Shown one piece after another: positions 1 through 13,259 of a DNA stretch of 64,000 nucleotides; the first letter of the stretch is position 1, and each line of letters opens with the position of its first letter. The notes beneath the pieces are model-generated. The model was not told the origin of the DNA, did no database searches, and saw only the letters and a program-made list of their open reading frames with translations. This DNA comes from Limosilactobacillus reuteri (GTDB lineage: Bacteria; Bacillota; Bacilli; Lactobacillales; Lactobacillaceae). The stretch is taken from assembly GCF_034259105.1 (NCBI RefSeq), contig NZ_CP139476.1, positions 34,429-98,428 of the forward strand, in the 5' to 3' direction. Made by a program: the position numbers and the translations under genes.

Positions 1-30
1 TTCTTCTTGAATTAATCTTCCTCTGTTCAT
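1..30 (-). CDS. Start of a small ORF running off the left edge
   Basis: A minus-strand start codon at 28-30 follows a strong AGGAGG ribosome site (35-42). Only the first ten codons (MNRGRLIQEE) lie inside the window. The ribosome site is the same kind used by the whole small-gene cluster, so this is probably its next member. Function cannot be judged from ten residues. Confidence 0.5.
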   Translation of the reverse strand, partial: MNRGRLIQEE

Positions 31-62
31 AACATTTCCTCCTAAATCGAATTTATTTTTAA

Positions 63-110
63 AATCAAAAAGCACCATGAAAATTACTTCACGGTGCTAC
101 CATTATTACC
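63..110 (-). terminator. Rho-independent terminator
   Basis: Read on the minus strand, an 11-bp stem starting AGCACC and ending GGTGCT is followed by a T-rich run. It lies just downstream of the DUF4160 gene and closes that transcription unit. Confidence 0.75.
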
Positions 111-121
111 AATCAAGGCTT

Positions 122-409
122 TTATTTATAAAATTTTACTGTATCTTCTTCAAAGTAATCTTTCCACGCCGATAGCAAATCATTGTAGTTTACTACTAAG
201 AATTTCTCCAACCTTTTTATCTCTTTTTTTGAAAGACCTAGTTTATCATCAGCTAGTTTAACACTTCCATCTTGGAGTAACCAAAATTTTGCCGAAACAG
301 GTGAAGGACGTTTAACTGCTACATGGACATGTGCGGGTTCATTACCTTCGTTCGACCAAAAATAAATACAATAACCTAAAAAATTAATTAGATTCGGCAA
401 CTTTTTCAC
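122..409 (-). CDS. DUF4160 family protein
   Basis: A 95-residue protein with the DUF4160 signature: a hydrophobic beta strand, then YFWSNEGNEPAHVHV (residues ~16-30), which matches the family's aromatic-S-N/D-x-x-x-P-x-H-V-H-V motif. The family is usually found beside a small partner protein, sometimes in toxin-antitoxin-like pairs; its biochemical role is unknown. The start is GTG at 407-409, inside the 3' end of the upstream gene (26-nt overlap), so translation is probably coupled. A terminator follows at 63-110. The family call is fairly secure; any toxin role is inference. Confidence 0.7.
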   Translation of the reverse strand: MKKLPNLINFLGYCIYFWSNEGNEPAHVHVAVKRPSPVSAKFWLLQDGSVKLADDKLGLSKKEIKRLEKFLVVNYNDLLSAWKDYFEEDTVKFYK

Positions 410-653
410 CTGTTTCTTTTGCCATCTCCATAATCAACTCTTGATTATTATTAAGGATTCGCTCTAAGTTCTGTTCTTCTTTTGACGTGTAACCATCACT
501 AAATAGTTTTTTTTGTGTTGGCAATGTATAACGCGCCTCCTTAAATCCATAATCTGTTGGTTGTTCGAAATTTACATGAACAGAGCCATCGTTCTTTACA
601 TCAGAGTAAGTAATGATTAAATGTTCTGGAAAAGTTGCATATGGATATAACAT
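384..653 (-). CDS. Small partner protein of the DUF4160 gene
   Basis: An 89-residue acidic protein of no recognised family. ATG at 651-653 is preferred because GAGGTG sits 6 nt upstream; an in-frame GTG lies three codons earlier. It overlaps the DUF4160 gene by 26 nt, and the two look like a co-translated pair. DUF4160 genes often have a small neighbour (for example DUF2442), which fits the arrangement, but no DUF2442 motif could be confirmed here. The C-terminal half is predicted helical (residues ~60-85). Confidence 0.6.
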   Translation of the reverse strand: MLYPYATFPEHLIITYSDVKNDGSVHVNFEQPTDYGFKEARYTLPTQKKLFSDGYTSKEEQNLERILNNNQELIMEMAKETGEKVAESN

Positions 654-766
654 TATTTTCACCTCGTTTACTCAATCATTAGTTCTACTACTTATTATAT
701 ATTCTAAAGCTTAAAAAGAAAAATTATTTCTTTATTCTATTGTACCAATTTTGCTATTGCCTTTTA

Positions 767-1081
767 CTACCATTCCATGTTTTTTAACTCTTCCCAATTA
801 CATTCGTCATCATACCATTCGACAAGTTGAGTTATCATATTTTTGATTATTTCTTCTTCGCCACCATTATCCCAATATTTATCAAATTGATCTTGAGTCC
901 AACCAAATTCTGACTGGCGCCATTCTAATTCCGCATCATATTCGTCTGCTTGGTAACCAGGTGAATAGTAATAATCTAATTCTTCGGTGCCTCGCTTCAT
1001 ATGTACAATTAATTCACCGGCAAGATTTTCTTCGGTGCCTAACAATTTTGTCGATAATTTCTTTTCTACTAAACCATTCAT
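767..1081 (-). CDS. Small acidic protein, paralogue of 4090-4386
   Basis: A 104-residue, strongly acidic protein. GGAGGAAATTAAC immediately precedes the ATG at 1079-1081. The C-terminal part carries WTQDQFDKYWDNGGEEEI and a later LVEWYDD...WEE, which align residue for residue with the protein encoded at 4090-4386, so the two are paralogues. An acidic surface and a place in an ArdA-containing cluster suggest a DNA mimic or protein-inhibitor role, which is inference only. A 14-bp hairpin lies just upstream of the ribosome site. Confidence 0.7.
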   Translation of the reverse strand: MNGLVEKKLSTKLLGTEENLAGELIVHMKRGTEELDYYYSPGYQADEYDAELEWRQSEFGWTQDQFDKYWDNGGEEEIIKNMITQLVEWYDDECNWEELKNMEW

Positions 1082-1105
1082 GTTAATTTCCTCCTACATA
1101 ATAAA

Positions 1106-1159
1106 GACTTCATTTGAATGCTGCCTAGTTTTCTCACTAAACATAATTCAAATGAAGTC
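1106..1159 (-). promoter_or_regulatory. Leader hairpin in front of the 767-1081 gene
   Basis: Perfect 14-bp inverted arms (1106-1119 and 1146-1159, GACTTCATTTGAAT and its complement), followed on the minus strand by TTTATTATG and then the ribosome site. The same arms recur at 2942-2984 in front of another cluster gene. It could be an attenuator, a terminator of the upstream message or an RNA-stabilising hairpin. Confidence 0.6.
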
Positions 1160-1193
1160 CTTTAACTTCTATTAAAAATTCTTTTCCCACATG

Positions 1194-1577
1194 CTAGTTC
1201 AAAAAATCTTTAACGTTAATTCCAACGGTCGTATTATCTTTCCAATCGCCATTTTCGTCAAAGAATTTTTCTTGGGTGTGCTTTACATATTCAACGACTC
1301 CATTCCAAATTTCGCCGTCTGGATCATTTTCACTTGCTGCAAAGTGTACAACTTTTGCATAAGCAAGACGTACTGCATTATTATAAGTCGATAATTTTTC
1401 TTCTACATCATCAACATGACCATTAACCTTATAGTCCACCCAATGTTCCGCTTCAGTGTTAGCTTCTGGGGCGCTATAGTAAACTAAACCATTTTTGTTA
1501 CTGAAATCTGTCATCTTTTTCTTGCTATCATCAACAATTACTTCTTGCTTTGTTAGTAAGTCGGTTACTTTAATCAT
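1194..1577 (-). CDS. Hypothetical acidic protein
   Basis: A 127-residue protein with no family I recognise. CGGAGGAAGCATC precedes the ATG (1575-1577), a clear ribosome site. Composition is acidic with several aromatic residues; there is no signal peptide or membrane segment. It follows the AbrB-like antitoxin gene (1666-1911) by 89 nt, where a toxin partner might be expected, but nothing in it resembles MazF/PemK or another known toxin. More probably it is another member of the small-gene cluster. Confidence 0.65.
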   Translation of the reverse strand: MIKVTDLLTKQEVIVDDSKKKMTDFSNKNGLVYYSAPEANTEAEHWVDYKVNGHVDDVEEKLSTYNNAVRLAYAKVVHFAASENDPDGEIWNGVVEYVKHTQEKFFDENGDWKDNTTVGINVKDFLN

Positions 1578-1665
1578 GATGCTTCCTCCGTTTGTTCGTT
1601 ATTACTAATATTTTACCAAACTCAAAATTGCTACAAAAATTTCTTTTTCTGTTAAATATTCCATA

Positions 1666-1911
1666 CTACAAATCCTTGAGAGCGTCTATTAAATCAGAGT
1701 CTTCATCGAAAATTTTATCTATCATTTTCTGTGTATCTTTACTTATACTTTCTTTCTTTTTAAATGTTATTACTCGACCATCGGAAGAAATATCTTTTTC
1801 ATATTCGTCACCTGGTTGAGCGTGCATTTTTTCTTTGTCACTCTTGGTCAATCGTAAGCCAAATGAATTTCCAGATTTAAAAAATTTTGAGTTTTCATGA
1901 ATTTCTTGCAT
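1666..1911 (-). CDS. AbrB/MazE-like swapped-hairpin DNA-binding protein (orphan antitoxin)
   Basis: 81 residues. The N-terminal half (residues ~10-53) has the SpoVT/AbrB pattern: KSGNSFGLRLTKSDKEKM, then PGDEYE and a closing beta strand RVITFKKK. Such proteins are antitoxins of MazEF-like pairs or transcription regulators that bind their own promoter as dimers. The C-terminal tail (54-81) is helical and acidic, as expected of a toxin-binding tail. No toxin-like gene adjoins it. CGAGGTGATATT provides the ribosome site. The stretch 1920-1950 just upstream is an imperfect palindrome containing TATAAT, a plausible autoregulatory operator. Confidence 0.6.
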   Translation of the reverse strand: MQEIHENSKFFKSGNSFGLRLTKSDKEKMHAQPGDEYEKDISSDGRVITFKKKESISKDTQKMIDKIFDEDSDLIDALKDL

Positions 1912-1992
1912 AATATCACCTCGTAATTACATTATAGTATATTGGTGATTACAATTTCTCCAATTCTTACTTTTGTAAAAGGCGTGTTTTAT

Positions 1993-2220
1993 CTAATAGT
2001 GAAAACAATATAATTGCTTATTAGTTAATTCGTGACCATAAGCAAAAGCATCGTAAGTTTCTTCAGGGACAATTGGTTCTTCATCATAGACAAACAATTG
2101 TAAATCTGCATCTCCATCTCCATTTTCATGTTCGTCGTACCAATCGACGGCTTCCCACTCATCATTTGATGCAAATAATTCATTGCCTAGCCAATCACAA
2201 ACTGAATAATACTTTCTCAT
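1993..2220 (-). CDS. SVCDWxGNEL-motif small acidic protein, copy 1
   Basis: 75 residues, very acidic and aromatic. ATG at 2218-2220 is chosen because GGAGGAAATTATC precedes it; an in-frame TTG five codons earlier is part of the ribosome site. It opens with MRKYYSVCDWLGNELF; the same SVCDW-(L/M)-G-NEL motif occurs in its tandem twin (2265-2492) and in the longer protein at 11,712-12,047. No family is recognised. Location in the ArdA cluster suggests an anti-defence role, which is inference. Confidence 0.7.
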   Translation of the reverse strand: MRKYYSVCDWLGNELFASNDEWEAVDWYDEHENGDGDADLQLFVYDEEPIVPEETYDAFAYGHELTNKQLYCFHY

Positions 2221-2264
2221 GATAATTTCCTCCAATTCTTACCTTTGTGAAAGACGTGTTTTAT

Positions 2265-2492
2265 CTAATAGTGAAAACAATATAATTGCTTATTAGTTAA
2301 TTCGTGACCATAAGCAAAAGCATCGTAAGTTTCTTCAGGGACAATTGGTTCTTCATCATAGACAAACAATTGTAAATCTGCATCTCCATCTCCATTTTCA
2401 TGTTCGTCGTACCAATCGATGGCTTCCCACTCATCATTTGATGCAAATAATTCATTGCCTAGCCAATCACAAACTGAATAATACTTTCTCAT
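2265..2492 (-). CDS. SVCDWxGNEL-motif small acidic protein, copy 2
   Basis: 75 residues, 74 of them identical to the product of 1993-2220. The ATG at 2490-2492 has the same GGAGGAAATTATC ribosome site. It is the upstream member of the tandem duplication. Near-complete identity at the DNA level, including the spacer, shows that a whole gene-plus-spacer cassette was copied. Function unknown. Confidence 0.7.
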   Translation of the reverse strand: MRKYYSVCDWLGNELFASNDEWEAIDWYDEHENGDGDADLQLFVYDEEPIVPEETYDAFAYGHELTNKQLYCFHY

Positions 2493-2521
2493 GATAATTT
2501 CCTCCAAATTCACTCGTAATC

Positions 2522-2917
2522 TTAAGCTGCCTTTTCTGCATAATTGATAATTTCTTTCACCATATCTAGGTAATCTTCAGATAACGTTGTTCCCTCTGGT
2601 ATCCAGATTGGATAATCAAAGCTCGTTATCTCTTCATCAATATCAAGAACGGCTTCAACAGGACAATGATAGTTAGCTTCTTCTAACTCATTATGAACTA
2701 ACTGAACACGTTTACTCGTTGCTCTGATATTCAATTCTTGAAGCATAATTTTAATGGCCAGTTTTGACGCCTGGCCGTACAACGCAAACTCATCATTTCT
2801 CCAATAATTATCCGTAATTAACTTTTTATTCTTGGCAATTGTTTCAGAAACGGTCTTAATAGTATTTGCCATGTTTAATAATGCTAATTTTTCTTTTTCG
2901 ATCGTCTTAGTGTTCAT
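2522..2917 (-). CDS. Hypothetical protein
   Basis: 131 residues, mostly helical, with a charged N-terminus (MNTKTIEKEKLALL). GGAGGAAATTAAG precedes the ATG (2915-2917). No recognised domain, membrane segment or signal peptide. Unlike most neighbours it is not strikingly acidic. A 14-bp leader hairpin (2942-2984) sits directly upstream, as for the gene at 767-1081. Confidence 0.65.
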   Translation of the reverse strand: MNTKTIEKEKLALLNMANTIKTVSETIAKNKKLITDNYWRNDEFALYGQASKLAIKIMLQELNIRATSKRVQLVHNELEEANYHCPVEAVLDIDEEITSFDYPIWIPEGTTLSEDYLDMVKEIINYAEKAA

Positions 2918-2941
2918 CTTAATTTCCTCCTACATAATAAA

Positions 2942-2984
2942 GACTTCATTTGAATGCTGCCCTAAACATAATTCAAATGAAGTC
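2942..2984 (-). promoter_or_regulatory. Leader hairpin, second copy
   Basis: The same 14-bp arms as at 1106-1159 (2942-2955 and 2971-2984), with a shorter loop, again followed by TTTATTATG and the ribosome site of the downstream gene. Confidence 0.6.
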
Positions 2985-3023: not shown

Positions 3024-3064
3024 CAAAAAAAAGACCACCGTTGATATAAATTAGTGGTGGTCTT
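3024..3064 (-). terminator. Rho-independent terminator
   Basis: On the minus strand AAGACCACC pairs with GGTGGTCTT (9 bp), then a run of T. It ends the message of the Phd-like antitoxin gene and separates it from 2522-2917. Confidence 0.85.
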
Positions 3065-3092: not shown

Positions 3093-3347
3093 TCATAATT
3101 CATTCCAAACCTTGTCGAAATCTTCATCTTCATCATTTTCTCGTTCTTTAATCTGCTTATTCACACCTTGGTTAACCAGAAAAAGAGTTTCCTGAATAGC
3201 CTTCCAATCATCTTCGCCAACTACGACGGCCCCTTTTTCTCCATCTTTCGTTGGTTTTACCATGACTGGCTGCTTGTCGTCGTTTACTTTCTTTATGAGC
3301 TTAAAAAATTCTTTTCGCCCTTGAGTTGGCGTTATTACATTGTCCAT
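3093..3347 (-). CDS. Phd/YefM-type antitoxin, no adjacent toxin
   Basis: 84 residues. The ATG at 3345-3347 is chosen over an upstream in-frame start because CAGGAGGG lies 6 nt before it. The N-terminal ~55 residues show the Phd/YefM fold pattern: ITPTQGRKEFFKLIKKV, then PVMVKPTKDGEKGAVVVGEDDW, a DNA-binding half followed by the turn and strand typical of the family. The tail is acidic and helical. Such proteins neutralise RelE/Doc-type toxins and repress their own operon. A terminator follows immediately and no toxin gene is present, so it is an orphan; it could neutralise toxins encoded elsewhere. Confidence 0.65.
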   Translation of the reverse strand: MDNVITPTQGRKEFFKLIKKVNDDKQPVMVKPTKDGEKGAVVVGEDDWKAIQETLFLVNQGVNKQIKERENDEDEDFDKVWNEL

Positions 3348-3462: not shown

Positions 3463-3708
3463 CTACGCGACTTCCTCGATTTCACCTAATAGCTTAATTT
3501 CATAGTCAATGAAATCTTGATTTTGTAGCTCTCCAATAATAAGGGCATCTACATCTTCTGGCTCCATATCCATAATTTCTTCCAAACAATCCAATTCTGA
3601 ACTATAGCTTTCTGGGAAGCGTTCCATTAGTAACGATACTAAATCATAGCGATTAACAATTACTTGGTATACAGAATTGTCGTCACGATCAATTGCAATT
3701 AACTTCAT
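3463..3708 (-). CDS. Hypothetical acidic protein
   Basis: 81 residues starting at ATG 3706-3708 (GGAGGAAATTATA upstream). Very acidic in its second half (EEIMDMEPEDVDALI and following). No recognised family, membrane segment or metal motif. It belongs to the cassette-like series sharing one ribosome site and spacer type. Confidence 0.65.
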   Translation of the reverse strand: MKLIAIDRDDNSVYQVIVNRYDLVSLLMERFPESYSSELDCLEEIMDMEPEDVDALIIGELQNQDFIDYEIKLLGEIEEVA

Positions 3709-3753
3709 TATAATTTCCTCCAATTTTTAACTTTTCTAAAAGATATGTTTTAT

Positions 3754-4041
3754 CTACATCCAGTCGTATCCTTTTCGTTTACAATAACTACTACGATTAT
3801 CTCGCAATGTCTGATCACAATCTAATCCACGAGGATGTTTTTCATCTTCCTCGAATGCGTTCATCCAAATAGTGTTTTGACCCTCGCCAGCTAAATAATA
3901 TTGTGGGTTAAGACCATATAGTTTACGTAATTGACACCACCGGTCATTGCAATGTGGCTGCCGACTAATATTTTCGTACCCGTAAGTTTTTTCGTGCATA
4001 CGATGTACAATCTTTTTGTAACGAGAATATTGTTTGCTCAT
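3754..4041 (-). CDS. Hypothetical basic/aromatic protein
   Basis: 95 residues; ATG at 4039-4041 with GGAGAAAATTATT upstream. Unlike its neighbours it is rich in Lys, Arg, His, Tyr and Cys (for example HCNDRWCQLRKLYG, and a late SSYCKRKGYDWM). The Cys/His content would allow metal binding, but no standard zinc-finger spacing is evident. Function unknown. Confidence 0.6.
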   Translation of the reverse strand: MSKQYSRYKKIVHRMHEKTYGYENISRQPHCNDRWCQLRKLYGLNPQYYLAGEGQNTIWMNAFEEDEKHPRGLDCDQTLRDNRSSYCKRKGYDWM

Positions 4042-4089
4042 AATAATTTTCTCCACCTTTTACTTTTTCTAAAATATCCGTTTCGCAAA

Positions 4090-4386
4090 TTAAGCAATTT
4101 CCTCCCAAGTGGACCAATCATCATAAAAATCAACAATGCCATCAACATAGTTGTCAATTTCTTTATCCTCGCCGCCGTTTTCCCAATAGTCGTCAAATTT
4201 TTCTTGCGTCCAATGCTCGTTGTCTAGGTAGTAGTCAATTGCCGACTCGTAAACAACGTCTGACAATCCACATTCAGCGATAAGGAGTTGTTTTTCTTCT
4301 TCCCCACGCTCTAATGTAAGAATTACCTCTCCAATTCCTGTTTCTACTAAACTTACTAATTCTGTGTGTAATTTTGTTCCGATCAT
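4090..4386 (-). CDS. Small acidic protein, paralogue of 767-1081
   Basis: 98 residues. ATG at 4384-4386 is preferred because GGAGGAAATTATC precedes it. The C-terminal half contains WTQEKFDDYWENGGEDKEI followed by IVDFYDD...WEEI, matching the 767-1081 product (WTQ-x2-FD-x-YW-x-NGGE). The N-terminal halves differ, so the shared C-terminal module is the conserved unit. Strong negative charge; function unknown. Confidence 0.7.
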   Translation of the reverse strand: MIGTKLHTELVSLVETGIGEVILTLERGEEEKQLLIAECGLSDVVYESAIDYYLDNEHWTQEKFDDYWENGGEDKEIDNYVDGIVDFYDDWSTWEEIA

Positions 4387-4414
4387 GATAATTTCCTCCA
4401 ATTTATACCTTTCT

Positions 4415-4702
4415 CTAATAGTCATTCATTAATTCATCAATACTACTTTCAACGCATTCAATAATTGCCGTTACAATGTATATACCGTTATCTTCAATAC
4501 AAATTGGGACCCATTCCGCGACCGCAACAATTCGCTCATCACTTACGGGGATACCTTCTTCATTTAACTCGTCTACAATCATTCCCTCAAAATCGTCAAT
4601 CGTGACATCGTCATCATTCTTACCTTCACCAAATTCTTTGAGTGCTGTTTGTGCTTGAAGTAGTGCTTCTGCTAATTGTTCTTGAATTTCAACCTTAACC
4701 AT
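4415..4702 (-). CDS. Hypothetical acidic protein
   Basis: 95 residues; ATG at 4700-4702 after GGAGGAAATTAAC. It begins with a helix (VKVEIQEQLAEALLQAQ), then a long Asp/Glu-rich segment (KNDDDVTIDDFEG and onward). No cysteine motif or membrane span. It ends 29 nt before the next start in the series. Function unknown. Confidence 0.65.
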   Translation of the reverse strand: MVKVEIQEQLAEALLQAQTALKEFGEGKNDDDVTIDDFEGMIVDELNEEGIPVSDERIVAVAEWVPICIEDNGIYIVTAIIECVESSIDELMNDY

Positions 4703-4743
4703 GTTAATTTCCTCCAATTCGTACCTATGCTAAAGTATCTGTT

Positions 4744-4953
4744 TTACCCACCAATAAACAAAACTACTTTACCTGTCGAAAGGGTTAATTTCTCGTCATC
4801 GCCATAGCCTTGCCACACATCGTCTATTGATGGGAATACTTCTAACAAGCCGTCATCATGAAACTCTTTAATGCTTTCGTAGCTTGTATGGTTGCTATTA
4901 TCAATAATTTCTTGGATTTCTTTTGGCGTTAACTCACTCAATAAAGTTTCCAT
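4744..4953 (-). CDS. Hypothetical small protein
   Basis: 69 residues if started at ATG 4951-4953 (METLLSELTPKEIQ), about nine bases after GGAGAA. An ATG three codons upstream is too close to the ribosome site, and a far-upstream extension would overlap the 5021-5440 gene. Helical N-terminus, acidic middle, no recognised family. The start is the least certain part. Confidence 0.5.
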   Translation of the reverse strand: METLLSELTPKEIQEIIDNSNHTSYESIKEFHDDGLLEVFPSIDDVWQGYGDDEKLTLSTGKVVLFIGG

Positions 4954-5020
4954 TTTATTCATTTCTCCAATATTTATTTTAATGATTGCCTTATCTTGGT
5001 AATTTTCTTTTGTCAGGAGC

Positions 5021-5440
5021 TTATTTACTTGGAACATTAATACCATTTGTAGACAAAAAATCGCATGAAAAATCACTTATAGACTCTACTTCATCTGTGC
5101 CTAACAATTCTTTAATTTCCTCCGCATTCTGTTTATAAATTTTCTTTACTTGTTTAATAATCTTCTTAGAGTGCAACATTGAACTTAACAACCACTGATC
5201 ATATTCTTCATACGAACCCCAAATATCTCGAATTTGTTGGTCAAAAGCTTCATTAGCTTGTCCATTCAACGAAATATTAATGTCCCATAACCAATCGTTT
5301 AATACATAACCAATAAAAGCATTTTTAATATTTTCTTCAGAATTAAAACCATTTAGTGCTGCATCAATATATTTTTCTGCCTTTGCGTCCCAAAATGCTT
5401 CATGTGCTTTTGCGAATAAAGATTTTATTTGTGTTTCCAT
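5021..5440 (-). CDS. Hypothetical protein
   Basis: 139 residues; ATG at 5438-5440 with GGAGAAAA directly before it and GGAG further upstream. Largely helical with many aromatic residues (AFWDAKAEKYIDAAL, then VLNDWLWDINISL). No known domain found. A helical, Trp-rich acidic profile is common in plasmid accessory proteins but does not identify a function. Confidence 0.6.
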   Translation of the reverse strand: METQIKSLFAKAHEAFWDAKAEKYIDAALNGFNSEENIKNAFIGYVLNDWLWDINISLNGQANEAFDQQIRDIWGSYEEYDQWLLSSMLHSKKIIKQVKKIYKQNAEEIKELLGTDEVESISDFSCDFLSTNGINVPSK

Positions 5441-5460
5441 TTTTCTCCACACTCCTAAAT

Positions 5461-5634
5461 TTATTTTCTAATATCAAATACGATGGAATTTTTCTCCATA
5501 TTGTCCAAACCGACTAAGTATTGCCAATCTGGATTAATTTTTACTACATTCATCGACTTATCAAAGTAACAATAATCGCCTTGACTTTCCTCAAACTTAA
5601 TCATGTCTTTCCCATTCATCCAAATTGGCTCCAT
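5461..5634 (-). CDS. Hypothetical small protein
   Basis: 57 residues if started at ATG 5632-5634, nine bases after GGAGG. The ATG at 5641-5643 overlaps the upstream stop as ATGA but abuts the ribosome site and is a less likely initiator. The tight junction with the upstream gene implies translational coupling. Aromatic-rich (EPIWMNGKDM, DYCYFDKS). Function unknown. Confidence 0.5.
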   Translation of the reverse strand: MEPIWMNGKDMIKFEESQGDYCYFDKSMNVVKINPDWQYLVGLDNMEKNSIVFDIRK

Positions 5635-5639
5635 CTTAC

Positions 5640-5822
5640 TCATCCTCCAATATTTTCTTTTTCTTCTAACTGTTCTACTTTGTATCCAACATTTTCTAAC
5701 GCTTCAATTGCCTCGGTTAAAGTCATTTCAACGCCAACGCCCCATGACTCGCCCCATTTAATTAATTCTTGTTCATTAACTCGTTCTCTAAATCCGTCAC
5801 CAGTGTCAATTAAAAATCGCAT
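5640..5822 (-). CDS. Small protein, paralogue of 7884-8063
   Basis: 60 residues; ATG 5820-5822, GAGG seven bases upstream. Residues ~20-52 (LIKWGESWGVGVEMTLTEAI and EALENVGYKVE) align with the 59-residue product of 7884-8063 (LIRWAQELV...NEAIEAIENYQGHDYEVE). Both look like helix-turn-helix-strand miniature proteins. Function unknown. It is the first cluster gene to the left of the IS30 insertion. Confidence 0.6.
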   Translation of the reverse strand: MRFLIDTGDGFRERVNEQELIKWGESWGVGVEMTLTEAIEALENVGYKVEQLEEKENIGG

Positions 5823-5867
5823 TGTGTTACCTCTTAATAGTGAATTTATTTTTAATCGTCGTTTGTA

Positions 5868-6925: not shown

Positions 6926-6962
6926 TTTCAGGAATAGTGTATTTGATATGAGATTTTCTTTG

Positions 6963-7235: not shown

Positions 7236-7260
7236 TTTTGATTTCCTCCTAAAATTACTT

Positions 7261-7587
7261 TTAACCCCAACCCCAGTCGGTAGTAACCACCTGATCGCCC
7301 TCGGTGCGATAAATGCAACTTTCATCACCGCTTTCAACCAATGCCTCTCCCAAGGCTTCTAAATCAATATAGTCAATAGGATTTGGGGCGCCGTTGTAAT
7401 CTTGCTTGTCAAGATGGTTGTCAAGATACCAACCCTCTGTTAATTCGTAATAAGCGAAGTCTTCCAACGTGTCATATACACTCAAATTGCTTTCTTGCCA
7501 TTCGCCTTTACCGAATACATCTAATAGTTCTTGTGCTAGTTCTGGCTTGTCCGCTTTTAACTCTGCAAAACTGTTGTAAAGTGTCAT
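7261..7587 (-). CDS. Short ArdA-like antirestriction protein
   Basis: 108 residues; ATG at 7585-7587 after GGAGGAAATTTAAG. Its C-terminal half, FAYYELTEGWYL then PIDYIDLEALGEALVES, resembles the third domain of ArdA, whose typical motif is a Y-(I/F)-D-Y/L-E-A-(L/F)-G stretch. ArdA is a DNA mimic that blocks type I restriction enzymes. This protein is shorter than ArdA (about 165-175 residues) and may be a one-domain relative. A full-length ArdA is encoded at 12,449-12,973. Family membership is probable; activity is inference. Confidence 0.5.
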   Translation of the reverse strand: MTLYNSFAELKADKPELAQELLDVFGKGEWQESNLSVYDTLEDFAYYELTEGWYLDNHLDKQDYNGAPNPIDYIDLEALGEALVESGDESCIYRTEGDQVVTTDWGWG

Positions 7588-7611
7588 CTTAAATTTCCTC
7601 CTAAAATTTCT

Positions 7612-7857
7612 TTACATAAGAACTGAATCAACTTCTACTGGGATAATATCTAGGCATGATGTGGTACCATTTTCTCCATCAAAGCGAACACGGGTTCCGT
7701 ATTCTTCCGTCCAGTAAAATTCTTTTTCTCCAGTGATATTCTTGAAAAGTCGTTCACCTGCTGTTTGCGCATTTTCAAAACAGCTATATAAACCAACTGG
7801 CGCAGGTACATTACTATCATTTTCATTTTCTCGGTAGATTAATTCATAAATTGTCAT
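7612..7857 (-). CDS. Hypothetical small protein
   Basis: 81 residues; ATG at 7855-7857 after GGAGGAAGTTGAA. Sequence begins MTIYELIYRENENDSNVPAP. No recognised domain, one central aromatic patch (EFYWTEEYG). Spacing of 24 nt to the next gene downstream fits one message with the rest of the cluster. Confidence 0.6.
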   Translation of the reverse strand: MTIYELIYRENENDSNVPAPVGLYSCFENAQTAGERLFKNITGEKEFYWTEEYGTRVRFDGENGTTSCLDIIPVEVDSVLM

Positions 7858-7883
7858 TTCAACTTCCTCCTAAAAACTCTTTG

Positions 7884-8063
7884 CTAGGCCACCAATTCAA
7901 CTTCATAATCGTGACCTTGATAGTTTTCAATTGCTTCGATAGCTTCGTTCACCCCCATATCACAATCGGTATCGACTAATTCTTGTGCCCAACGAATTAA
8001 ATTCTTCTTTGTTTCGTGCCACCAGTAATCTGATTGTTCTAAATCCTTGACCAAAAATAACAT
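7884..8063 (-). CDS. Small protein, paralogue of 5640-5822
   Basis: A 59-residue frame with a strong ribosome site (GGGAGGAAATTAGA before ATG 8061-8063). Begins MLFLVKDLEQSDYWWHETKK; the segment LIRWAQELVDTDC and NEAIEAIENYQ matches the 5640-5822 protein. The conserved cluster spacer and ribosome site make it a real gene despite its size. Function unknown. Confidence 0.65.
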   Translation of the reverse strand: MLFLVKDLEQSDYWWHETKKNLIRWAQELVDTDCDMGVNEAIEAIENYQGHDYEVELVA

Positions 8064-8082
8064 TCTAATTTCCTCCCATTCA

Positions 8083-8112
8083 CAAATGCCGTCATATCAA
8101 CGTTTCTAGCAC
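8083..8112. repeat. Recurrent intercistronic element, copy 1
   Basis: The plus-strand string ATATCAACGTTTCTAGCAC occurs here and again at about 10,719-10,737, each time in the leader of a short cluster gene. Its role is unknown. Confidence 0.6.
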
Positions 8113-8145
8113 CTAAATTTCTTTCTAAATTACGTGTTTTATCAT

Positions 8146-8325
8146 CTAAGCAAATTGACCTAAAACCTTTGTCTGCTCTTCTTTACTTATTCCTAATTCA
8201 TATTGAGTGTAGTCATTAAATACACCATTGTCTGCACTATCCTTTAACGCCTCAAGAACGACAGTCGCTTCAAGTGGTGATAATTTCCGCCCGTTAATAA
8301 TAATTTCTTCGTTGTATAATTTCAT
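8146..8325 (-). CDS. Hypothetical small protein
   Basis: 59 residues; ATG at 8323-8325 after GGAGAAAATTAAC. A beta-like start (KLYNEEIIINGRKLS) and a central helix (EATVVLEALKDSAD), then acidic. No recognised family. Spacer and ribosome site match the rest of the series. Confidence 0.6.
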   Translation of the reverse strand: MKLYNEEIIINGRKLSPLEATVVLEALKDSADNGVFNDYTQYELGISKEEQTKVLGQFA

Positions 8326-8366
8326 GTTAATTTTCTCCACCTTTTACTTTTTCTAAAATATATGTT

Positions 8367-8693
8367 TTACCAATGGCTCAATTCTTCTAAATCGGAATAA
8401 TCATTTTTAAGAATTTTATCAATAGTAGTATCAACTGCTGGCTCATAAAACGATACAAACCATTTCCCATCTTCTTTACCAAAATAGTTCACAATCGTTT
8501 CGTTGTTTTGAGGATCAATATTAAAGTGCTTGAAAACTCGGTTAACCACAATTTTTTCAAACAGATCGATATATTCTTGCTGATACTTTTCTGAATACTC
8601 TACTTCGTTATAAGCGTCGAACTGTAAACATTCCACGCCCGCCCTATCTAATTTATTCAAAACTGATAACTTTTTCGCTGTTAAAATTTCCAT
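8367..8693 (-). CDS. Hypothetical acidic protein
   Basis: 108 residues; ATG at 8691-8693 after GGAGGAAATTATC. Helical and acidic, with YSEKYQQEYIDLFEKIVVN in the first half and WFVSFYEPAVDTTIDKIL near the end. No known domain. It may be a further DNA-mimic-type protein, but this rests only on charge and position. Confidence 0.6.
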   Translation of the reverse strand: MEILTAKKLSVLNKLDRAGVECLQFDAYNEVEYSEKYQQEYIDLFEKIVVNRVFKHFNIDPQNNETIVNYFGKEDGKWFVSFYEPAVDTTIDKILKNDYSDLEELSHW

Positions 8694-8758
8694 GATAATT
8701 TCCTCCACACTCCTAAAATATGTTTTCGTTCTGGTTTTATTACTAAAATTTCTTTTCT

Positions 8759-9238
8759 CTAATACAAGTAATCACGGTATTCAACCGAATCATCATTAAT
8801 CAAATCTAAGTCAATATTCCCATTTTCGTCAGTTGCACCTTCGATAATTTTTACTTTATTTTCTCGGTATGCTAGTTTTAACACTTTAATCCAATGCTTC
8901 GGATGAAGTGCTTCATCCAATAATCTTTCGCTGTACAGATCAATAGGTGCCTTTTCATCAACCGTATGGTAAACAGTGTCTAATTCATAATCAAAAGCAT
9001 TGCCCTGTTCCACTGGATTACTGAACAAGTCGAAATAAAAGTCCCATAGTACACACGCAATAAATTCTCCCTTAATAGTCTTTTTTGCACGGTACTTATC
9101 AGCATAATGTGTAAGCACTGAATCAAATGTAACCCCTGCACTAATGAATTTTCTCCGTTGTTCTGGTGTTGCATCATGCCAAGCCTTACTCTTAACTAAT
9201 TCATTAACACTAAATGGTAGTAAATTTACATCAATCAT
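8759..9238 (-). CDS. Hypothetical protein
   Basis: 159 residues if started at the second ATG of an ATGATG pair (9236-9238), five bases after GGAGG. Mostly helical, with Trp-rich patches (SKAWHDATPEQRRKFISAG; ACVLWDFYFDLF). No domain recognised. It is one of the longest unknowns in the cluster and lies between the beta-clamp region and the short genes. Confidence 0.6.
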   Translation of the reverse strand: MIDVNLLPFSVNELVKSKAWHDATPEQRRKFISAGVTFDSVLTHYADKYRAKKTIKGEFIACVLWDFYFDLFSNPVEQGNAFDYELDTVYHTVDEKAPIDLYSERLLDEALHPKHWIKVLKLAYRENKVKIIEGATDENGNIDLDLINDDSVEYRDYLY

Positions 9239-9280
9239 CATTTCCTCCACACTCCTAAATTTTCTCTCTACACCAACCAA

Positions 9281-9502
9281 TTAAAACGGGACTTCATTGG
9301 TTTCATAGTCCCAATTACGACGATCAAATTCCTCCATAATGGACTCGGTGTCGTCCCAAACGTAACTGCTGAGAAATTCCTCTAAATCAGTAATTCCCCA
9401 CCATTCATTAACAATCTCCATTAACTTTTCTTTATCAAACACGGCCTCACAACCAATGCTTCCCTCAACACCTGTTTGATAATCCATGACAACTTCACTC
9501 AT
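9281..9502 (-). CDS. Small acidic protein, paralogue of 10,482-10,688
   Basis: 73 residues; ATG 9500-9502 after GAGGAA. The core DKEKLMEIVNEWWGITDLEE, then FLSSYVWDD and FDRRNWDYE, aligns with the 10,482-10,688 product (KKRLIKCLQQAWGISWKEF, VRSGYDWD, FDSRKWKYK). The pair thus share a W-G-I-(T/S)-x2-EF-x2-S-x-Y-x-WD...FD-x-R-x-W-x-Y signature. Function unknown; the acidic and basic versions may have diverged in target. Confidence 0.65.
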   Translation of the reverse strand: MSEVVMDYQTGVEGSIGCEAVFDKEKLMEIVNEWWGITDLEEFLSSYVWDDTESIMEEFDRRNWDYETNEVPF

Positions 9503-9563
9503 AGCCAATTCCTCAACTTTCCGTATATGATTTTATGTAAACTATATTTACTTAAATTTCTTT

Positions 9564-10418
9564 TTAGAATGTCCGTAACGGGGTAACTAATCCAATTCCA
9601 CCATTTTCTCGTGTGAAAGTGAAAGGTCGTAAGGTACCATTAAACGAGAACTTCAAGAACTCTGTATTCTCGCATTTCTGTAATTCACTAATAAGTAGCT
9701 TCACATTGAAGTCAATTTCAAAATTCAGTCCCTTGTTATTCTCGACCTTGTGATTATCACCGATGAACAAATTGCGGTGCTTAATTTCTTGAATGTCATC
9801 ACCAACGCCAATAACAACTTTGGAATTATCTTGAATTTCAAGATGAACATCGTAAAGTCCCTTTGTATTGGTCTTTTCCTTCAATGCTTTCAGAATAGGC
9901 AATAATTCTTTCTTCCGTGTTTCAAATTCAAACCGAGCATTATCTGGAATGAGAAAATCTAATTCCGGGTAGAATGCATTGAACCGTGTAAAAGTATCGT
10001 TGTCTGAATTGTCATCAATAAATGTTTCCTCATTACCGTCTAAGATTGCGACCTTGCCAGTGGGTTTATTATTTTTTCCGAACTCTGGAGTAATGAATAA
10101 GTGAGTACCATGTTTCGTCGGTGTCTTAGATAAATTCTTTGCAAACTTACCATCAATCAAAAATTCTTTTCCAACTAACTCATCGCTAGTGCTTGCTGCA
10201 ACCTTTTGTTGCGTCAAAATATGAGAATCGGTTGCCTCAATAGTTAATTCATTCTCGTGAATTTCAACGTGAACATACTGTAATACCGGCCGTGAATCTG
10301 TTCGTGCCGTTGCTACGGCAACAAACTTTAGTGCCTTCAAAAATTCTTTTGCGTTCACAATAATTGCTTCGTTTACGTTACTAGTTGCTACGTTATTTAA
10401 TAGTGTTTGTGTATTCAT
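9564..10418 (-). CDS. Plasmid-borne DNA polymerase III beta-clamp (DnaN) paralogue
   Basis: 284 residues; ATG 10,416-10,418 after GAGGTAATTAAC. Residues ~25-70 (LKFVAVATARTDSRPVLQYV, then a strand pair ending IEATDSHIL) match the N-terminal domain of bacterial sliding clamps. The C-terminus RPFTFTRENGGIGLVTPLR matches the conserved clamp ending (P-x-R). At 284 residues it is shorter than a chromosomal clamp (about 370), so one domain is reduced. A clamp ring tethers polymerases and repair proteins to DNA. A plasmid copy may replace the host clamp after transfer or sequester clamp-binding proteins; the purpose is inference, the family call is strong. Confidence 0.75.
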   Translation of the reverse strand: MNTQTLLNNVATSNVNEAIIVNAKEFLKALKFVAVATARTDSRPVLQYVHVEIHENELTIEATDSHILTQQKVAASTSDELVGKEFLIDGKFAKNLSKTPTKHGTHLFITPEFGKNNKPTGKVAILDGNEETFIDDNSDNDTFTRFNAFYPELDFLIPDNARFEFETRKKELLPILKALKEKTNTKGLYDVHLEIQDNSKVVIGVGDDIQEIKHRNLFIGDNHKVENNKGLNFEIDFNVKLLISELQKCENTEFLKFSFNGTLRPFTFTRENGGIGLVTPLRTF

Positions 10419-10481
10419 GTTAATTACCTCTTAATAGTGAATTTATTTTTAATAGTGTTTTTGTTATGATAATTTCTTTAC

Positions 10482-10688
10482 TCAAATACCCAAGTCATTG
10501 TCTGGATCAATTACTTTATATTTCCATTTTCGGCTATCAAAGAAGTCGGCGATTGCATAGGCTCCGTCCCAATCATAGCCACTACGTACAAATTCTTTCC
10601 AGCTTATGCCCCATGCTTGTTGCAAGCATTTAATCAGTCTTTTCTTGTTAAAAAGGTAATACCCATTTTCGCTAAAATTCATCTTCAT
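10482..10688 (-). CDS. Small protein, paralogue of 9281-9502
   Basis: 68 residues; ATG 10,686-10,688 after GGAGGAAATTATA. It shares the W-G-I...EF...S-x-Y-x-WD...FD-x-R-x-W-x-Y pattern with the 9281-9502 product. It is more basic at the N-terminus (FNKKRLIKCLQQAWG). Function unknown. Confidence 0.65.
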   Translation of the reverse strand: MKMNFSENGYYLFNKKRLIKCLQQAWGISWKEFVRSGYDWDGAYAIADFFDSRKWKYKVIDPDNDLGI

Positions 10689-10718
10689 TATAATTTCCTC
10701 CAATTTGTAAATACTGTT

Positions 10719-10737
10719 ATATCAACGTTTCTAGCAC
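10719..10737. repeat. Recurrent intercistronic element, copy 2
   Basis: Second copy of ATATCAACGTTTCTAGCAC (first near 8,092-8,110), in the leader of 10,482-10,688. Confidence 0.6.
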
Positions 10738-10767
10738 ATAAATTTCTTTATAAAAGACATATTTTAT

Positions 10768-11037
10768 CTAATCTTCTGCTTCGCTCAGTAATTCGTTTAG
10801 ATTAATTCCAAATGTTATCCCTGGTTCCAAAGTATCAATTTCTTGCTCCCAAATTTCGATACTATTATTTAATTCTTGCCCAAAATCTACTGCGCTATAT
10901 TCGTTGAATTGTAGATATTGAACTAATAATTTCTTTGCCTTGTCTAACGTGGTTGCTGTAGTAATGTAATCAGTCGGTTCCTGCCAAAACTCTTGATGAT
11001 CGACAATAACAACAACATAAACTTTTTTATTTTCCAT
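10768..11037 (-). CDS. Hypothetical acidic protein
   Basis: 89 residues; ATG 11,035-11,037 after GAGGAAATTAAA. It opens with a hydrophobic strand (KKVYVVVIVDHQEFW) followed by a helix (TTLDKAKKLLVQYLQF) and an acidic tail. The strand-helix layout is compact and globular, but no family is recognised. Confidence 0.6.
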   Translation of the reverse strand: MENKKVYVVVIVDHQEFWQEPTDYITTATTLDKAKKLLVQYLQFNEYSAVDFGQELNNSIEIWEQEIDTLEPGITFGINLNELLSEAED

Positions 11038-11109
11038 TTTAATTTCCTCGCTTTTCCAAAAATTCTTTTCGCTTCTACCTATGGAAATATCTAATTTTGT
11101 TAATCGTTT

Positions 11110-11673
11110 TTATGCTTCGACGATTTTCAGACCGTAACTCTCAACCCAACCAAAGTCAGTAAGACGCTTCATCATTTCATTTGCCGCATCAAGGCTGTAA
11201 AATTTATTCCAACGATCATAGCTTAATTTTGTGTAGCGTGGAGTTACCTTTACTCCGATTTTGTCGCCGTCTGAAATTACCCACTTCCTTGGCTTGACAC
11301 GTTTTTCTCCAACCAGCACCTTAAATGTTTCCTCGTTTCGCTCTACTACAAACCATTCTTTATACCAGGCATCCTCTGGGTTATTGGACTTAGCTTTTTC
11401 AGGATCACGGTATCGCAATTTATTATTCTGAGATAACCAAGTTAATCGCTTGCTCATTGTACTGGAGCTACTAAATCTTAAACTGCCATTAAGTGCGCCA
11501 TCAGCAAAATCAAAAACGCCCTTTTTAAATTCCTCGGGCGTCTTATAAGTATTCGTGTAATCCTCAACAACACGGCGATCAAACATATCGAAACAATTAC
11601 TCGAACGATAGCGTCCAGTAATCGTCATGGCTTTGCGGTTGATCTTAAAACTTAATACAGTATCGTAACTCAT
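11110..11673 (-). CDS. Hypothetical protein
   Basis: 187 residues, the longest unknown of the cluster; ATG 11,671-11,673 after GGAGGAAATTAAG. Rich in beta-type segments (TVLSFKINRKAMTITGRYRS) and in Lys/Arg, unlike most neighbours: SSSSTMSKRLTWLSQNNKLR, and a helix near the C-terminus (DAANEMMKRLTDFGW). It could contact nucleic acid, which is a guess from charge. No domain recognised. Confidence 0.6.
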   Translation of the reverse strand: MSYDTVLSFKINRKAMTITGRYRSSNCFDMFDRRVVEDYTNTYKTPEEFKKGVFDFADGALNGSLRFSSSSTMSKRLTWLSQNNKLRYRDPEKAKSNNPEDAWYKEWFVVERNEETFKVLVGEKRVKPRKWVISDGDKIGVKVTPRYTKLSYDRWNKFYSLDAANEMMKRLTDFGWVESYGLKIVEA

Positions 11674-11711
11674 CTTAATTTCCTCCGTTTATCTAAAAAT
11701 TCTTTTCGCTT

Positions 11712-12047
11712 CTACCAATTAGGAAAAACATATTTTTCTTTAACAATAGTTGTTTGACTAACGGGCATCGCCCCTGCTATGCCAACTAATTCATGCTTTT
11801 CTACACTTTCACCATCTTCTTGTGGATAGGCGAACATTTGAATATCATCTAATTCTTCATCTGTTAATTGTTCCCAATATTCAAGCATTTCATTTTCATC
11901 GTAAAACCCTTCAAGCTCATTACCCATCCAATCGCAAACACTGAAATACCAGGATTTACGAATTAGCTCACCATCAAAGTAGTCGTCTGGCTTAATCCAT
12001 TTGAAAGTAACTGGATAGTTTTCTCGGCGATAGTGTAATTTCTTCAT
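11712..12047 (-). CDS. SVCDWxGNEL-motif protein, long form
   Basis: 111 residues; ATG 12,045-12,047 after GGAGGAAATTATC. After a basic N-terminal extension (KKLHYRRENYPVTFKW), it contains WYFSVCDWMGNELEGFYDE and an acidic segment (LTDEELDDIQMFAYPQEDGE) matching the layout of the duplicated proteins at 1993-2492. The family therefore has three members in this cluster. Function unknown. Confidence 0.65.
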   Translation of the reverse strand: MKKLHYRRENYPVTFKWIKPDDYFDGELIRKSWYFSVCDWMGNELEGFYDENEMLEYWEQLTDEELDDIQMFAYPQEDGESVEKHELVGIAGAMPVSQTTIVKEKYVFPNW

Positions 12048-12075
12048 GATAATTTCCTCCTTGATAATTTCTTTT

Positions 12076-12231
12076 CTAGTTGACTTTGGTTAATTCAATT
12101 TCTCCATTGGCCGCCGCTTCAATAATCCACGGATAATTTTCAAGTAATACACGGCCACGGATATGGTCAACACCGCCTCCATGTGTTCCCTTGTAATCAA
12201 CTCGGTATAATTTTGTTTTGAAGATACGCAT
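12076..12231 (-). CDS. Small hypothetical protein
   Basis: 51 residues; ATG 12,229-12,231 after CGGAGGAAATAAAA. Sequence begins MRIFKTKLYRVDYKGTHGGG and ends with a short acidic stretch. The ribosome site and cluster spacing make it a probable gene. No family recognised. Confidence 0.6.
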   Translation of the reverse strand: MRIFKTKLYRVDYKGTHGGGVDHIRGRVLLENYPWIIEAAANGEIELTKVN

Positions 12232-12257
12232 TTTTATTTCCTCCGTTCTATGAAAAA

Positions 12258-12413
12258 TTATTTTTGTTCAATACCTTTGAGTTGACGAATAATTTTCGCT
12301 TCACTCATTATTACCTTGTAATTTGAGTCGGCTTCTTGTGCTGAATGTACCCAGCCCCCAAAGCATACAAGTGCGATAATAGCAAGCATTACAATTGCAA
12401 TATTTTTCTTCAT
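12258..12413 (-). CDS. Small membrane or secreted protein
   Basis: 51 residues; ATG 12,411-12,413 after CGGAGGACAAATAACC. MKKNIAIVMLAIIALVCFGG is a positively charged start plus one hydrophobic span, i.e. a signal anchor or signal peptide, followed by a ~30-residue hydrophilic tail. One of two membrane proteins in the cluster. Its role is unknown; a place next to ardA would suit an envelope function in early conjugation, but this is speculation. Confidence 0.6.
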   Translation of the reverse strand: MKKNIAIVMLAIIALVCFGGWVHSAQEADSNYKVIMSEAKIIRQLKGIEQK

Positions 12414-12448
12414 GGTTATTTGTCCTCCGAGTGGGTGTATTGTGTGGT

Positions 12449-12973
12449 TTACAGGTATTCATTCTTAAATTCTTCGATAATTTTGCTTGCATGATTGTTA
12501 AGCATTTCTTGATATTGATATTCATTCATGCTTGCTAGATTGCCCACCCCATTAAAGTAGATATATGGATCAAGCCAGTTTTGAATTTCACCAAAGAAAG
12601 TTGCACGTGCGATTTCAGTTTTATCCGTGAACATGGTATCGAAAAAGTCATCATCAAAATCATATACATCCTCGCAGCCGGTTGCTTCACGATCGTCTAG
12701 GTCTTTATATACATCCTCGATAGTTTCATAGTCTTCTAGTGCCTCGGCTAATTCATTTAACCGATACATGCTATCATCTTCACTGATTGTGAATGGTGCT
12801 TCGTAATCACTAATGAACCATTCATCGTGATAACCGTGCTTACTGTCACCGCCTAAGTCTAGCTTGTCCAAAATGTCCTTGTTTACGTCATCAACTGGTA
12901 ACGTTGTCCATTGTCCGTTGAGTTCGCCATCGTTGTACTTTGCCAAGTTTGAAACAAATACGTTAATTTTCAT
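12449..12973 (-). CDS. ardA: ArdA antirestriction protein
   Basis: 174 residues, the usual ArdA length. The N-terminus KINVFVSNLAKYNDGELNG and QWTTLPV match the family's opening strand and N-x-x-(K/R)-Y-x-x-G-E-L-x-G-x-W motif; the remainder is very acidic (DYEAPFTISEDD, EDVYDFDDDFFD), as expected of a protein that mimics bent B-DNA and occupies the DNA site of type I restriction enzymes. On conjugative elements ardA is expressed as the plasmid enters a new cell. The start follows AAAGGGGTAAATATC. It lies near the promoter end of the cluster, where early expression would be greatest. Confidence 0.85.
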   Translation of the reverse strand: MKINVFVSNLAKYNDGELNGQWTTLPVDDVNKDILDKLDLGGDSKHGYHDEWFISDYEAPFTISEDDSMYRLNELAEALEDYETIEDVYKDLDDREATGCEDVYDFDDDFFDTMFTDKTEIARATFFGEIQNWLDPYIYFNGVGNLASMNEYQYQEMLNNHASKIIEEFKNEYL

Positions 12974-13038
12974 GATATTTACCCCTTTTTATTTACCTAA
13001 AGTCTATTATTTAGCTTAATTAATAGTGTAAGATTACA

Positions 13039-13242
13039 TTAGTTTAATAGGTTCGTCAATAGTGCCCGTAAAAGTGGAAGGGTCACTGTAATAACAATAA
13101 CTGCAATGAATAGTGCCAAAATGCTGTACTTTTTAAACTTGATTAACTTTTCGCTATCCCGTTCTAATTGCTTAATGTATTCAGGATCAACTAACTTGTA
13201 ATCCTGTTCAGCGTATTTTTGTAGTTCCTTTTGTGACATCAT
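13039..13242 (-). CDS. Small single-span membrane protein
   Basis: 67 residues (MMSQKELQKY...). A charged helical N-terminal half (residues 1-38, possible coiled coil: EYIKQLERDSEKLIKFKK) is followed by one hydrophobic span, ILALFIAVIVITVTLPLL, and a short tail. The start is ATG 13,240-13,242 with AAAGG further upstream; the next ATG is three bases on. First coding gene downstream of the candidate structured RNA. Function unknown. Confidence 0.55.
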   Translation of the reverse strand: MMSQKELQKYAEQDYKLVDPEYIKQLERDSEKLIKFKKYSILALFIAVIVITVTLPLLRALLTNLLN

Positions 13243-13259
13243 AATTATCAAAACCTTTC

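Follow-up and report, generated by a model that had tools for sequence, protein, structure and literature searches.

Clade II conjugative plasmids of the pLS20 family encode a small repressor, Reg_p576, that has its own promoter, and a mosaic set of mostly unknown establishment genes together with an anti-restriction gene; the EGeRS1-B element described alongside showed no promoter activity (PMC8708921). The anti-CRISPR protein AcrIIA32 is a fusion with Aca13, and the fused part is missing from AcrIIA32.1 (PMC8934645). The p576 Reg system and the Aca regulators are the known parallels to the locus analysed here, a one-strand row of small genes headed by a repressor gene, tandem promoters and a non-coding leader (Table 1). 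It lies in a 64,000-nucleotide (nt) stretch of Limosilactobacillus reuteri DNA (hereafter the window). The window spans bases 34429-98428 of C1, a contig of 98,428 bases and one of three that make up a 2.27-Mb Limosilactobacillus genome. We consider it reasonably probable that this cluster is the early or establishment operon of a phage-plasmid, induced on entry, built of ordered and exchangeable cassettes, probably directed against host defences, and now carried on a plasmid without virion genes. Genes, promoters, palindromes, the matching of repressors to operators, linkers and their order, and kinship with phage-plasmids were computed; from these we infer binding, timing, anti-defence function and the mechanism of recombination.

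The promoters ahead of the row are of the ordinary double-stranded, sigma-70 type. Of the four, three score 11 or 12 out of 12 against the consensus, and the remainder of positions 1-14600 stays at 10 or below; at a looser cut of 9, the region held 49 promoter-like sites against 57 in shuffled sequences, so only the array stands out. A palindrome lies inside the -35/-10 spacer of all four; with up to 3 mismatches allowed, it was matched 8 times, counted strand-wise, where 0.06 matches would be expected, and it recurred nowhere else in the 2.27-Mb genome at up to 2 mismatches. The sequence-only reading, an earlier interpretation made without database searches, had proposed that the cluster is expressed on entry; the promoter design fits such expression followed by silence, with the timing itself predicted from the arrangement.

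The repressor gene upstream of the array belongs to a family with 160 relatives at E ≤ 0.001; among the 120 matches listed, 15 carried a source name, all of them hypothetical L. reuteri proteins. All six repressors tested matched phrog_2277 (E 7e-7 to 1.3e-4). A profile of 49 members reached one PDB sequence, chain 8ye6_B (named A32), at residues 90-127 (E 0.0076), and this 38-residue part of A32 matched phrog_2277 at E 1.4e-15. A32 is presumably AcrIIA32, with residues 90-127 its Aca13 part, and the repressor would then be related to the Aca13 part of that anti-CRISPR protein; such kinship adds to an anti-defence reading of the operon. The confident, all-helical structure model of the repressor is that of a monomer, and a strand formed only in the dimer is possible. 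Variability across the 49 members was greatest in an extended stretch at residues 38-45 (mean entropy 1.58) and in the first helix (1.52), compared with 0.96-1.07 in the other helices, where single residues (56, 67 and 60) are as variable as those two parts. It is a reasonable guess that the first helix and stretch 38-45 contact DNA. Judged by sequence only, the Aca13-like repressor also has an inverted-repeat operator of its own.

Repressor and operator diverge together across loci. We compared 13 loci (the window, 7 plasmid records and 5 places in IMG/VR), whose palindromes fell into 8 types while the -35 and -10 elements remained nearly constant, one operator type having an altered -10 (TACAAT). 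Palindrome scores over 36 promoter spacers averaged 6.4 of 8, against 4.9 in shuffles. Operator models built from cluster promoters only were then scored against the 62-nt upstream region of each of 8 representative repressor genes; the own model ranked top in 8 of 8, and the true pairing was the best of 40,320. Repressor identity correlated with operator similarity over the 8 types (Mantel r 0.56, P = 0.003) and over the 13 loci (r 0.77, P = 5e-5, a value inflated by near-identical loci). Different operator types were found on L020 and L024, two IMG/VR contigs under the same assembly number (2937135192).

Behind the promoters, the row itself largely bore out its first description as about 35 small acidic genes on one strand: 35 genes were called, all on the minus strand from 13770 to 1, with an isoelectric point below 5 in 26. 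The 22 of these 35 with a usable relative are real genes, given that all of them show purifying selection (ratio of nonsynonymous to synonymous polymorphism, pN/pS, <0.5; pooled 0.28). The shared ribosome site, thought to precede nearly every gene, proved to be the property of a large minority, with an exact GGAGGAAATT within 25 nt of the start in 13 of 35 and GGAGG within 22 nt in 21. Likewise, intergenic gaps of 20-60 nt separate 16 of 31 neighbouring pairs, the rest falling outside that range (three gaps were recomputed by hand, and the gap holding IS30 was excluded). The row of the relatives ends with families F4, F5 and F6 (PemK), and F4-like and PemK-like genes, recognised by eye, lie at C1:34506-33608, just past the hairpin at 98-71.

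Most of the genes match no known family, as had been supposed. A scan of 36 proteins, a list that differs slightly from the 35 called genes and includes the repressor, returned seven Pfam families with one protein each: ArdA, three clamp domains, Phd, DUF4160 and a weak UPF0180. NCBIfam added the Doc-partner antitoxin TIGR02609 and a weak DhiT, and PHROGs gave 15 families, with anti-restriction, DNA polymerase/processivity and RusA-like names among them; the RusA-like Holliday-junction-resolvase match (E 1.9e-8) came from one of the 36 proteins, outside the 30 rescanned singly. Matches were placed on individual genes through annotated relatives. On this basis ArdA (E 1.1e-15), the beta-clamp relative and two orphan antitoxins (Doc-partner, E 1.2e-8; Phd, E 1.7e-8) were recovered as predicted, with no toxin found adjacent to either antitoxin: the search for Doc near its partner gave only an 18-residue match (E 0.85), and that for YoeB near Phd gave nothing. 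ArdA is the sole recognised anti-defence gene, and we infer the anti-defence role of the remainder. An additional "ArdA-like" protein did not hold up, since the single candidate tested, F2 at 11712-12047, scored a probability of 0.2% against the ArdA profile in hhalign. Structure prediction, suggested for every protein, was run for F2, one of the 35, and yielded a poor AlphaFold 2 (AF2) model with a predicted local distance difference test (pLDDT) score of 58 and no match at E 0.001. The DUF4160/DhiT-like open reading frame (ORF) and its partner near the end of the row were absent from the sequence-only reading. Clamp matches in 4 other genomes of 397 were set aside as ordinary-looking DnaN, in frames of 385-390 amino acids (aa).

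In lambdoid phages, recombination occurs at conserved linkers on gene boundaries. Over 12 loci, 284 genes fell into 78 families, 28 of which are confined to one locus; gene content differs strongly even among near relatives. All 12 loci have F1, 11 have F2, 11 have the clamp and 8 have ArdA; because contig or fetch ends truncate some loci, these counts are lower limits. Of the 284 genes, 128 (16 of the 35 in the window) have a linker in common with a member of a different family, defined as 20 or more identical bases within the 45 nt upstream; the same measure applied within genes gave 0 of 284. Linker groups joining at least two families numbered 17, the largest joining 12, 12, 8 and 8. The order of linkers along the operon agreed in 235 of 243 pairwise comparisons (300 shuffles: mean, 66%; maximum, 73%), an agreement that comes partly from families staying in place.

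The leader between promoters and first gene is mosaic too. Its ∼530 nt comprise a conserved start, slot 1 (three or more versions, unrelated to one another), a short linker, slot 2 (three versions), and a conserved end that carries a 65-nt hairpin (z of -4.7 to -9.2 in 6 of 6 leaders tested). Slot 2 together with the hairpin gave z of -2.4 to -5.1 in 13 of 13 loci. The leader as one large structured RNA was rejected: slot 2 alone ranged from -2.4 to +0.3 (6 of 13 loci) and slot 1 from -1.3 to +1.5 (13 of 13), so only the 65-nt hairpin is solid. At the Rfam gathering threshold, no family was found in the leaders of the window, L012, L013, L015, L016, L017, L020, L033 and L034; at an E-value threshold, the best match for the window and L034 leaders was no better than E 0.6, and the L036 leader had none.

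We then asked what kind of element carries the operon. The last 60 bases of C1 and its first 60 continue one reading frame, which encodes a repeat from a mucus-binding-like protein; C1 is therefore most likely a circular plasmid of 98 kb, and its nearest DNA relatives are L. reuteri plasmids. The leader was found in 6 of 72,556 plasmid records, all six typed non-mobilizable, in 0 of 50,697 phage records (another leader version, also 0 of 50,697), and in 1 of 50 Limosilactobacillus genomes searched, its own. Matches to the window DNA at large included 36 of 51 plasmids typed mobilizable or conjugative; among the 40 matches listed, those below the top six align solely to IS30 or to one antitoxin region. 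Two of the six leader-bearing relatives were checked for virion genes, and both were positive. NZ_CP102426 (128.8 kb) carries related replication and partition genes and a related cluster, with terminase, tape measure and holin genes nearby; LN906635 (p53608_1; 138.5 kb) likewise carries related replication and partition genes and a cluster, with structural, holin and endolysin genes nearby. These virion-bearing relatives also encode helicase, primase, kinase and tRNA genes. Comparison of 21 p53608_1 proteins or pieces with C1 gave five matches: RepA (53% identity), ParA (37%), ParM (57%), one integrase and one gene that precedes the virion genes. Within a late-region set of 12 p53608_1 proteins or pieces (two large ones in part), this last, non-virion gene was the only one to match (98%), and the terminase-region, structural, tail and holin proteins had no match on C1, which also has an actin-like partition protein and a weak RepA_N match. 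Because C1 keeps RepA, ParA, ParM and the pre-virion gene while the virion proteins are unmatched, it is best read, on its gene content, as a phage-plasmid remnant. That the cluster belongs to a mobile element is upheld.

A wider search with one repressor pattern over GTDB contigs confirmed 0 of 118 candidates. Repressor-like DNA was present in genome G035 (82% over 94 bases), and genome G005 gave a 57-base match. Contig 1 of G035 apparently consists of joined coding sequences without intergenic DNA and so was used for gene order only, which is that of a phage-plasmid: repressor-like gene, cluster, partition genes and virion-like genes.

The sequence-only reading had taken the cluster for an anti-defence island in the leading region of a conjugative plasmid, and gene style, ArdA in a one-strand cluster and orphan antitoxins do fit such an island. 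The whole genome, however, gave 0 matches to the MobA_MobL relaxase (PF03389) and the type IV secretion system coupling protein (PF02534), in a search that covered this one relaxase class and whose controls were positive in 1 and 5 of 14 genomes, Lactococcus lactis included. With six non-mobilizable leader-bearing relatives, at least two of them carrying virion genes, and promoters of the ordinary double-strand type with operators, this alternative is left with a very slight probability; the cluster is real and the guess at its role plausible, but the vehicle was misread. Little more probable is a toxin-antitoxin or addiction island with decayed modules that serves plasmid stability. Phd, Doc-partner and DhiT-like genes in the row and a PemK-like gene outside the window would suit it, yet such genes make up about five of the 35 called and those next to them, two of the antitoxins are without a toxin, and a shared, regulated promoter bank is unsuited to the steady expression that addiction needs. 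Less remote, though still unlikely in our view, is a plain phage early region whose small acidic proteins commandeer the replication and metabolism of the host in the lytic cycle, with anti-defence a minor task: a DnaN-like clamp in 11 of 12 loci, the helicase, primase, kinase and tRNA genes of the virion-bearing relatives and the missing defence-related match for most genes all point that way, whereas ArdA and toxin-antitoxin genes in the row, strong turnover of content between near relatives, an anti-CRISPR-associated kind of regulator and retention of the row on the window element despite loss of virion genes do not.

Several observations also weigh against an entry-induced anti-defence operon under a cognate repressor. 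Besides ArdA, none of the row's proteins matched a known inhibitor, and PADLOC gave 3 weak matches (best E, 0.0007). No Cas9 was detected in the host genome, in a search whose control did not pass the cut-off in any of 14 genomes. The direct match between repressor and AcrIIA32 is weak (E 0.0076), and a PDB fold search with the AF2 monomer model returned nothing convincing. In the co-divergence analysis, operators were chosen by eye ahead of the pairing test and some types are mutually close; the CP102426 type (4 loci) scored mostly 5 of 8, not above shuffles; and the autoregulatory site of the window scored 8.8, a value that one foreign model equalled to one decimal, compared with 18-22 for the other seven. 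Operators lay away from virion genes in the parts scanned, with no palindrome outside the array in 98.5 of 138.5 kb of p53608_1 or in the part of CP102426 covered (95.4 kb, ∼90.8 kb distinct, of 128.8 kb), so "immunity" may mean only silencing of the small-gene operon. Finally, IS30 and the hairpin at 3064-3031 may cut expression of the 3' half of the operon, which may be silent in the window strain. At least five near-identical chromosomal copies of IS30 exist (99-100% identity), and this insertion and the missing virion module suggest, as far as sequence can tell, an element in decay. Given IS30, the orphan antitoxins, the internal hairpin and the lost virion genes, the functional argument rests on the family rather than on the window copy.

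The phage-plasmid establishment operon that we favour would work as follows. An Aca13-like repressor, made from its own operator-bearing promoter, would keep the four-promoter bank off in carrier cells; in a naive cell, where no repressor is present, the bank would fire and a long message would be made until repressor builds up. ArdA and the sliding-clamp relative would be encoded on this message along with numerous very small and mainly acidic proteins, the majority of which probably act against host defences by blocking them. Conserved linkers, ∼20-45 nt long and with the ribosome site inside them, would mark the slots in which the genes keep their order, and homologous recombination at these linkers would exchange cassettes among co-resident elements. 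Diversification of the repressor-operator pair has produced at least eight types, which would allow co-resident elements to avoid mutual silencing. More tentatively, the row might be an ordered-slot capture system in which position-tied linkers act as homology docks for single genes or leader modules and leave the operon intact, Aca13-like silencing groups let unlike elements cohabit and recombine, and the 78 families form a positional library of mostly undescribed inhibitors. In either case the locus offers a limited set of genes in which to look for defence inhibitors, natural repressor-operator pairs (at least eight) for mutual comparison, and a testable mechanism for exchanging accessory genes while the operon is kept whole; the combination of array, leader hairpin and F1 protein is a genomic marker for finding further such operons. 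It also suggests that repressor-controlled entry operons, known from conjugative Bacillus plasmids, occur on phage-plasmids.

Two overlapping genes at 58183-59567 of the window match Pycsar defence (PycTM effector, E 3.8e-29; PycC cyclase, E 6.5e-69), and outside it, C1:6256-17310 encodes a type IIG-like restriction-methyltransferase, a protein matching SNF2/PLD helicases and a type IV restriction-like protein, so that the plasmid carries defences as well as ArdA. CRISPR as the target of the row was tried and set aside, there being no host Cas9 (under the poor control above) and, among the 6 candidates scored in each of 46 other Limosilactobacillus genomes, nothing that clearly resembled a spacer against the cluster. 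Elsewhere in the window, two huge, repeat-rich surface proteins, mucus-binding-like by eye and one of them 4593 residues long, occupy 33068-46849 and 60242-64000 (continuing into C1:1-1575); genes resembling, by eye, those for malic enzyme, a transporter and citrate-lyase accessory proteins lie at 51687-55855; a group II intron at 47534-49360 has its reverse-transcriptase frame in two ORFs, a longer frame lying at C1:14537-15697; and matches to RatA antitoxin RNA and the small RNA rli28 lie on opposite strands at 57821-58169. Between the cluster and the ParM-like gene lies a low-complexity stretch (15880-16480) of short direct repeats without genes of annotated size, a zone that is gene-poor in relatives too. 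On p53608_1, L015:10521-14468 holds a tmRNA match and eight tRNA matches.

Table 1. Features of the operon and its surroundings, in window coordinates
Feature	Position	Strand	Remarks
Predicted autoregulatory operator TATAACGTGTACTTTATA	14402..14419	-	Upstream of repressor gene; own model 8.8
Repressor gene, 78 aa, phrog_2277/Aca13-like	14147..14383	-	AF2 all-helical, pLDDT 93
Terminator-like hairpin	14127..14156	-	Repressor gene/array boundary; 9 such hairpins in region vs 6.6 in shuffles
Promoter 1, TTGACT-17-TATAAT	14079..14107	-	Operator 14083-14100
Promoter 2, TTGACA-17-TATAAT	13981..14009	-	Operator 13983-14000
Promoter 3, TTGACA-17-TATAAT	13869..13897	-	Operator 13871-13888
Promoter 4, TTGTTT-17-TATAAT	13782..13810	-	Weaker -35; operator 13784-13801
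Mosaic non-coding leader	13243..13770	-	5' linker and 3' end conserved, with two variable slots between them
Conserved 65-nt hairpin	13281..13345	-	Ahead of first ribosome site; minimum free energy -19.6, z -5.8
F1, 67 aa	13039..13242	-	Hydrophobic segment; 12/12 loci
ArdA anti-restriction protein	12449..12973	-	Family in 8/12 loci; only PF07275 match of 36
F2 family, acidic	11712..12047	-	11/12 loci; shorter relatives 1993-2220, 2265-2492
Accessory small genes upstream of IS30	6963..11673	-	Clamp among them
DnaN-like sliding clamp, 284 aa	9564..10418	-	PF00712, PF02767, PF02768, TIGR00663; tblastn to annotated dnaN; 11/12 loci
IS30-family insertion	5848..6936	+	Splits the gene row
Accessory small genes downstream of IS30	3463..5822	-	
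Phd antitoxin	3093..3347	-	Next ORF of 44 codons (2962-3096), without YoeB match
Internal hairpin	3031..3064	-	Followed by eight T on operon strand
Accessory small genes	767..2917	-	Include orphan Doc-partner antitoxin 1666-1911
DUF4160/DhiT-like ORF and partner ORF	122..653	-	ORF 122-409 (by eye; DhiT E only 0.005); partner 384-653
Terminator-like hairpin	71..98	-	Past last window gene
phrog_3314 gene	26331..27092	+	98% identical to gene shortly before p53608_1 virion genes; read as stump of lost late module

Like the window operon, the Reg_p576 system combines a plasmid-borne repressor with strong promoters of establishment genes, which there are repressed in the donor and switched on at entry (PMC8708921). 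It differs in its repressor, which is of the ribbon-helix-helix type rather than all-helical (monomer model) and Aca13-like; in its operators, which are pairs of direct heptamers upstream of the -35 or downstream of the start rather than spacer palindromes; and in its layout, with several operons on a conjugative plasmid instead of a tandem promoter bank, one long row and at least eight operator types on a phage-plasmid (PMC8708921). The leader of the window recalls EGeRS1 of pLS20, 400-600 nt of non-coding DNA with inverted repeats before the first ribosome site of the establishment genes (PMC8708921), yet in the window leader clear structure is limited to the 65-nt hairpin at the 3' end and the rest is mosaic. 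The Aca regulators and Acr-Aca fusions share the principle of a small DNA-binding autorepressor of an anti-defence operon (PMC8934645, PMC10901769), and in AcrIIA15 a single inverted repeat lies between the -35 and the -10 (PMC10901769), an arrangement also seen in the window promoters. In contrast to Aca systems, many more genes stand behind one regulator here, host Cas9 was not found, and the row has no proven anti-CRISPR.

Co-divergence of repressor and operator into a spectrum of specificities is described for Cluster A mycobacteriophages, where up to 30 genome-wide sites control lytic growth (PMC6550527); here, the 4-5 sites in the DNA examined all lie at one operon. Leading-region islands are likewise clusters of small anti-defence genes expressed on entry, with an orphan antitoxin discussed, but they are conjugative and use single-stranded DNA promoters, and the portion of that source available does not mention phage-plasmids (PMC11541004). 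The phage-plasmids of Apilactobacillus kunkeei resemble the present family as phages that replicate as plasmids with repA and parA; they measure 20-40 kb and belong to another genus, and L. reuteri is not named in the text available (PMC9648514). Within the results listed, our literature searches returned no paper on these L. reuteri phage-plasmids or their operon. Three features are new as far as those searches reached: the setting on a phage-plasmid, the tandem promoters whose spacer operators have diversified in specificity, and the ordered slots defined by linkers.

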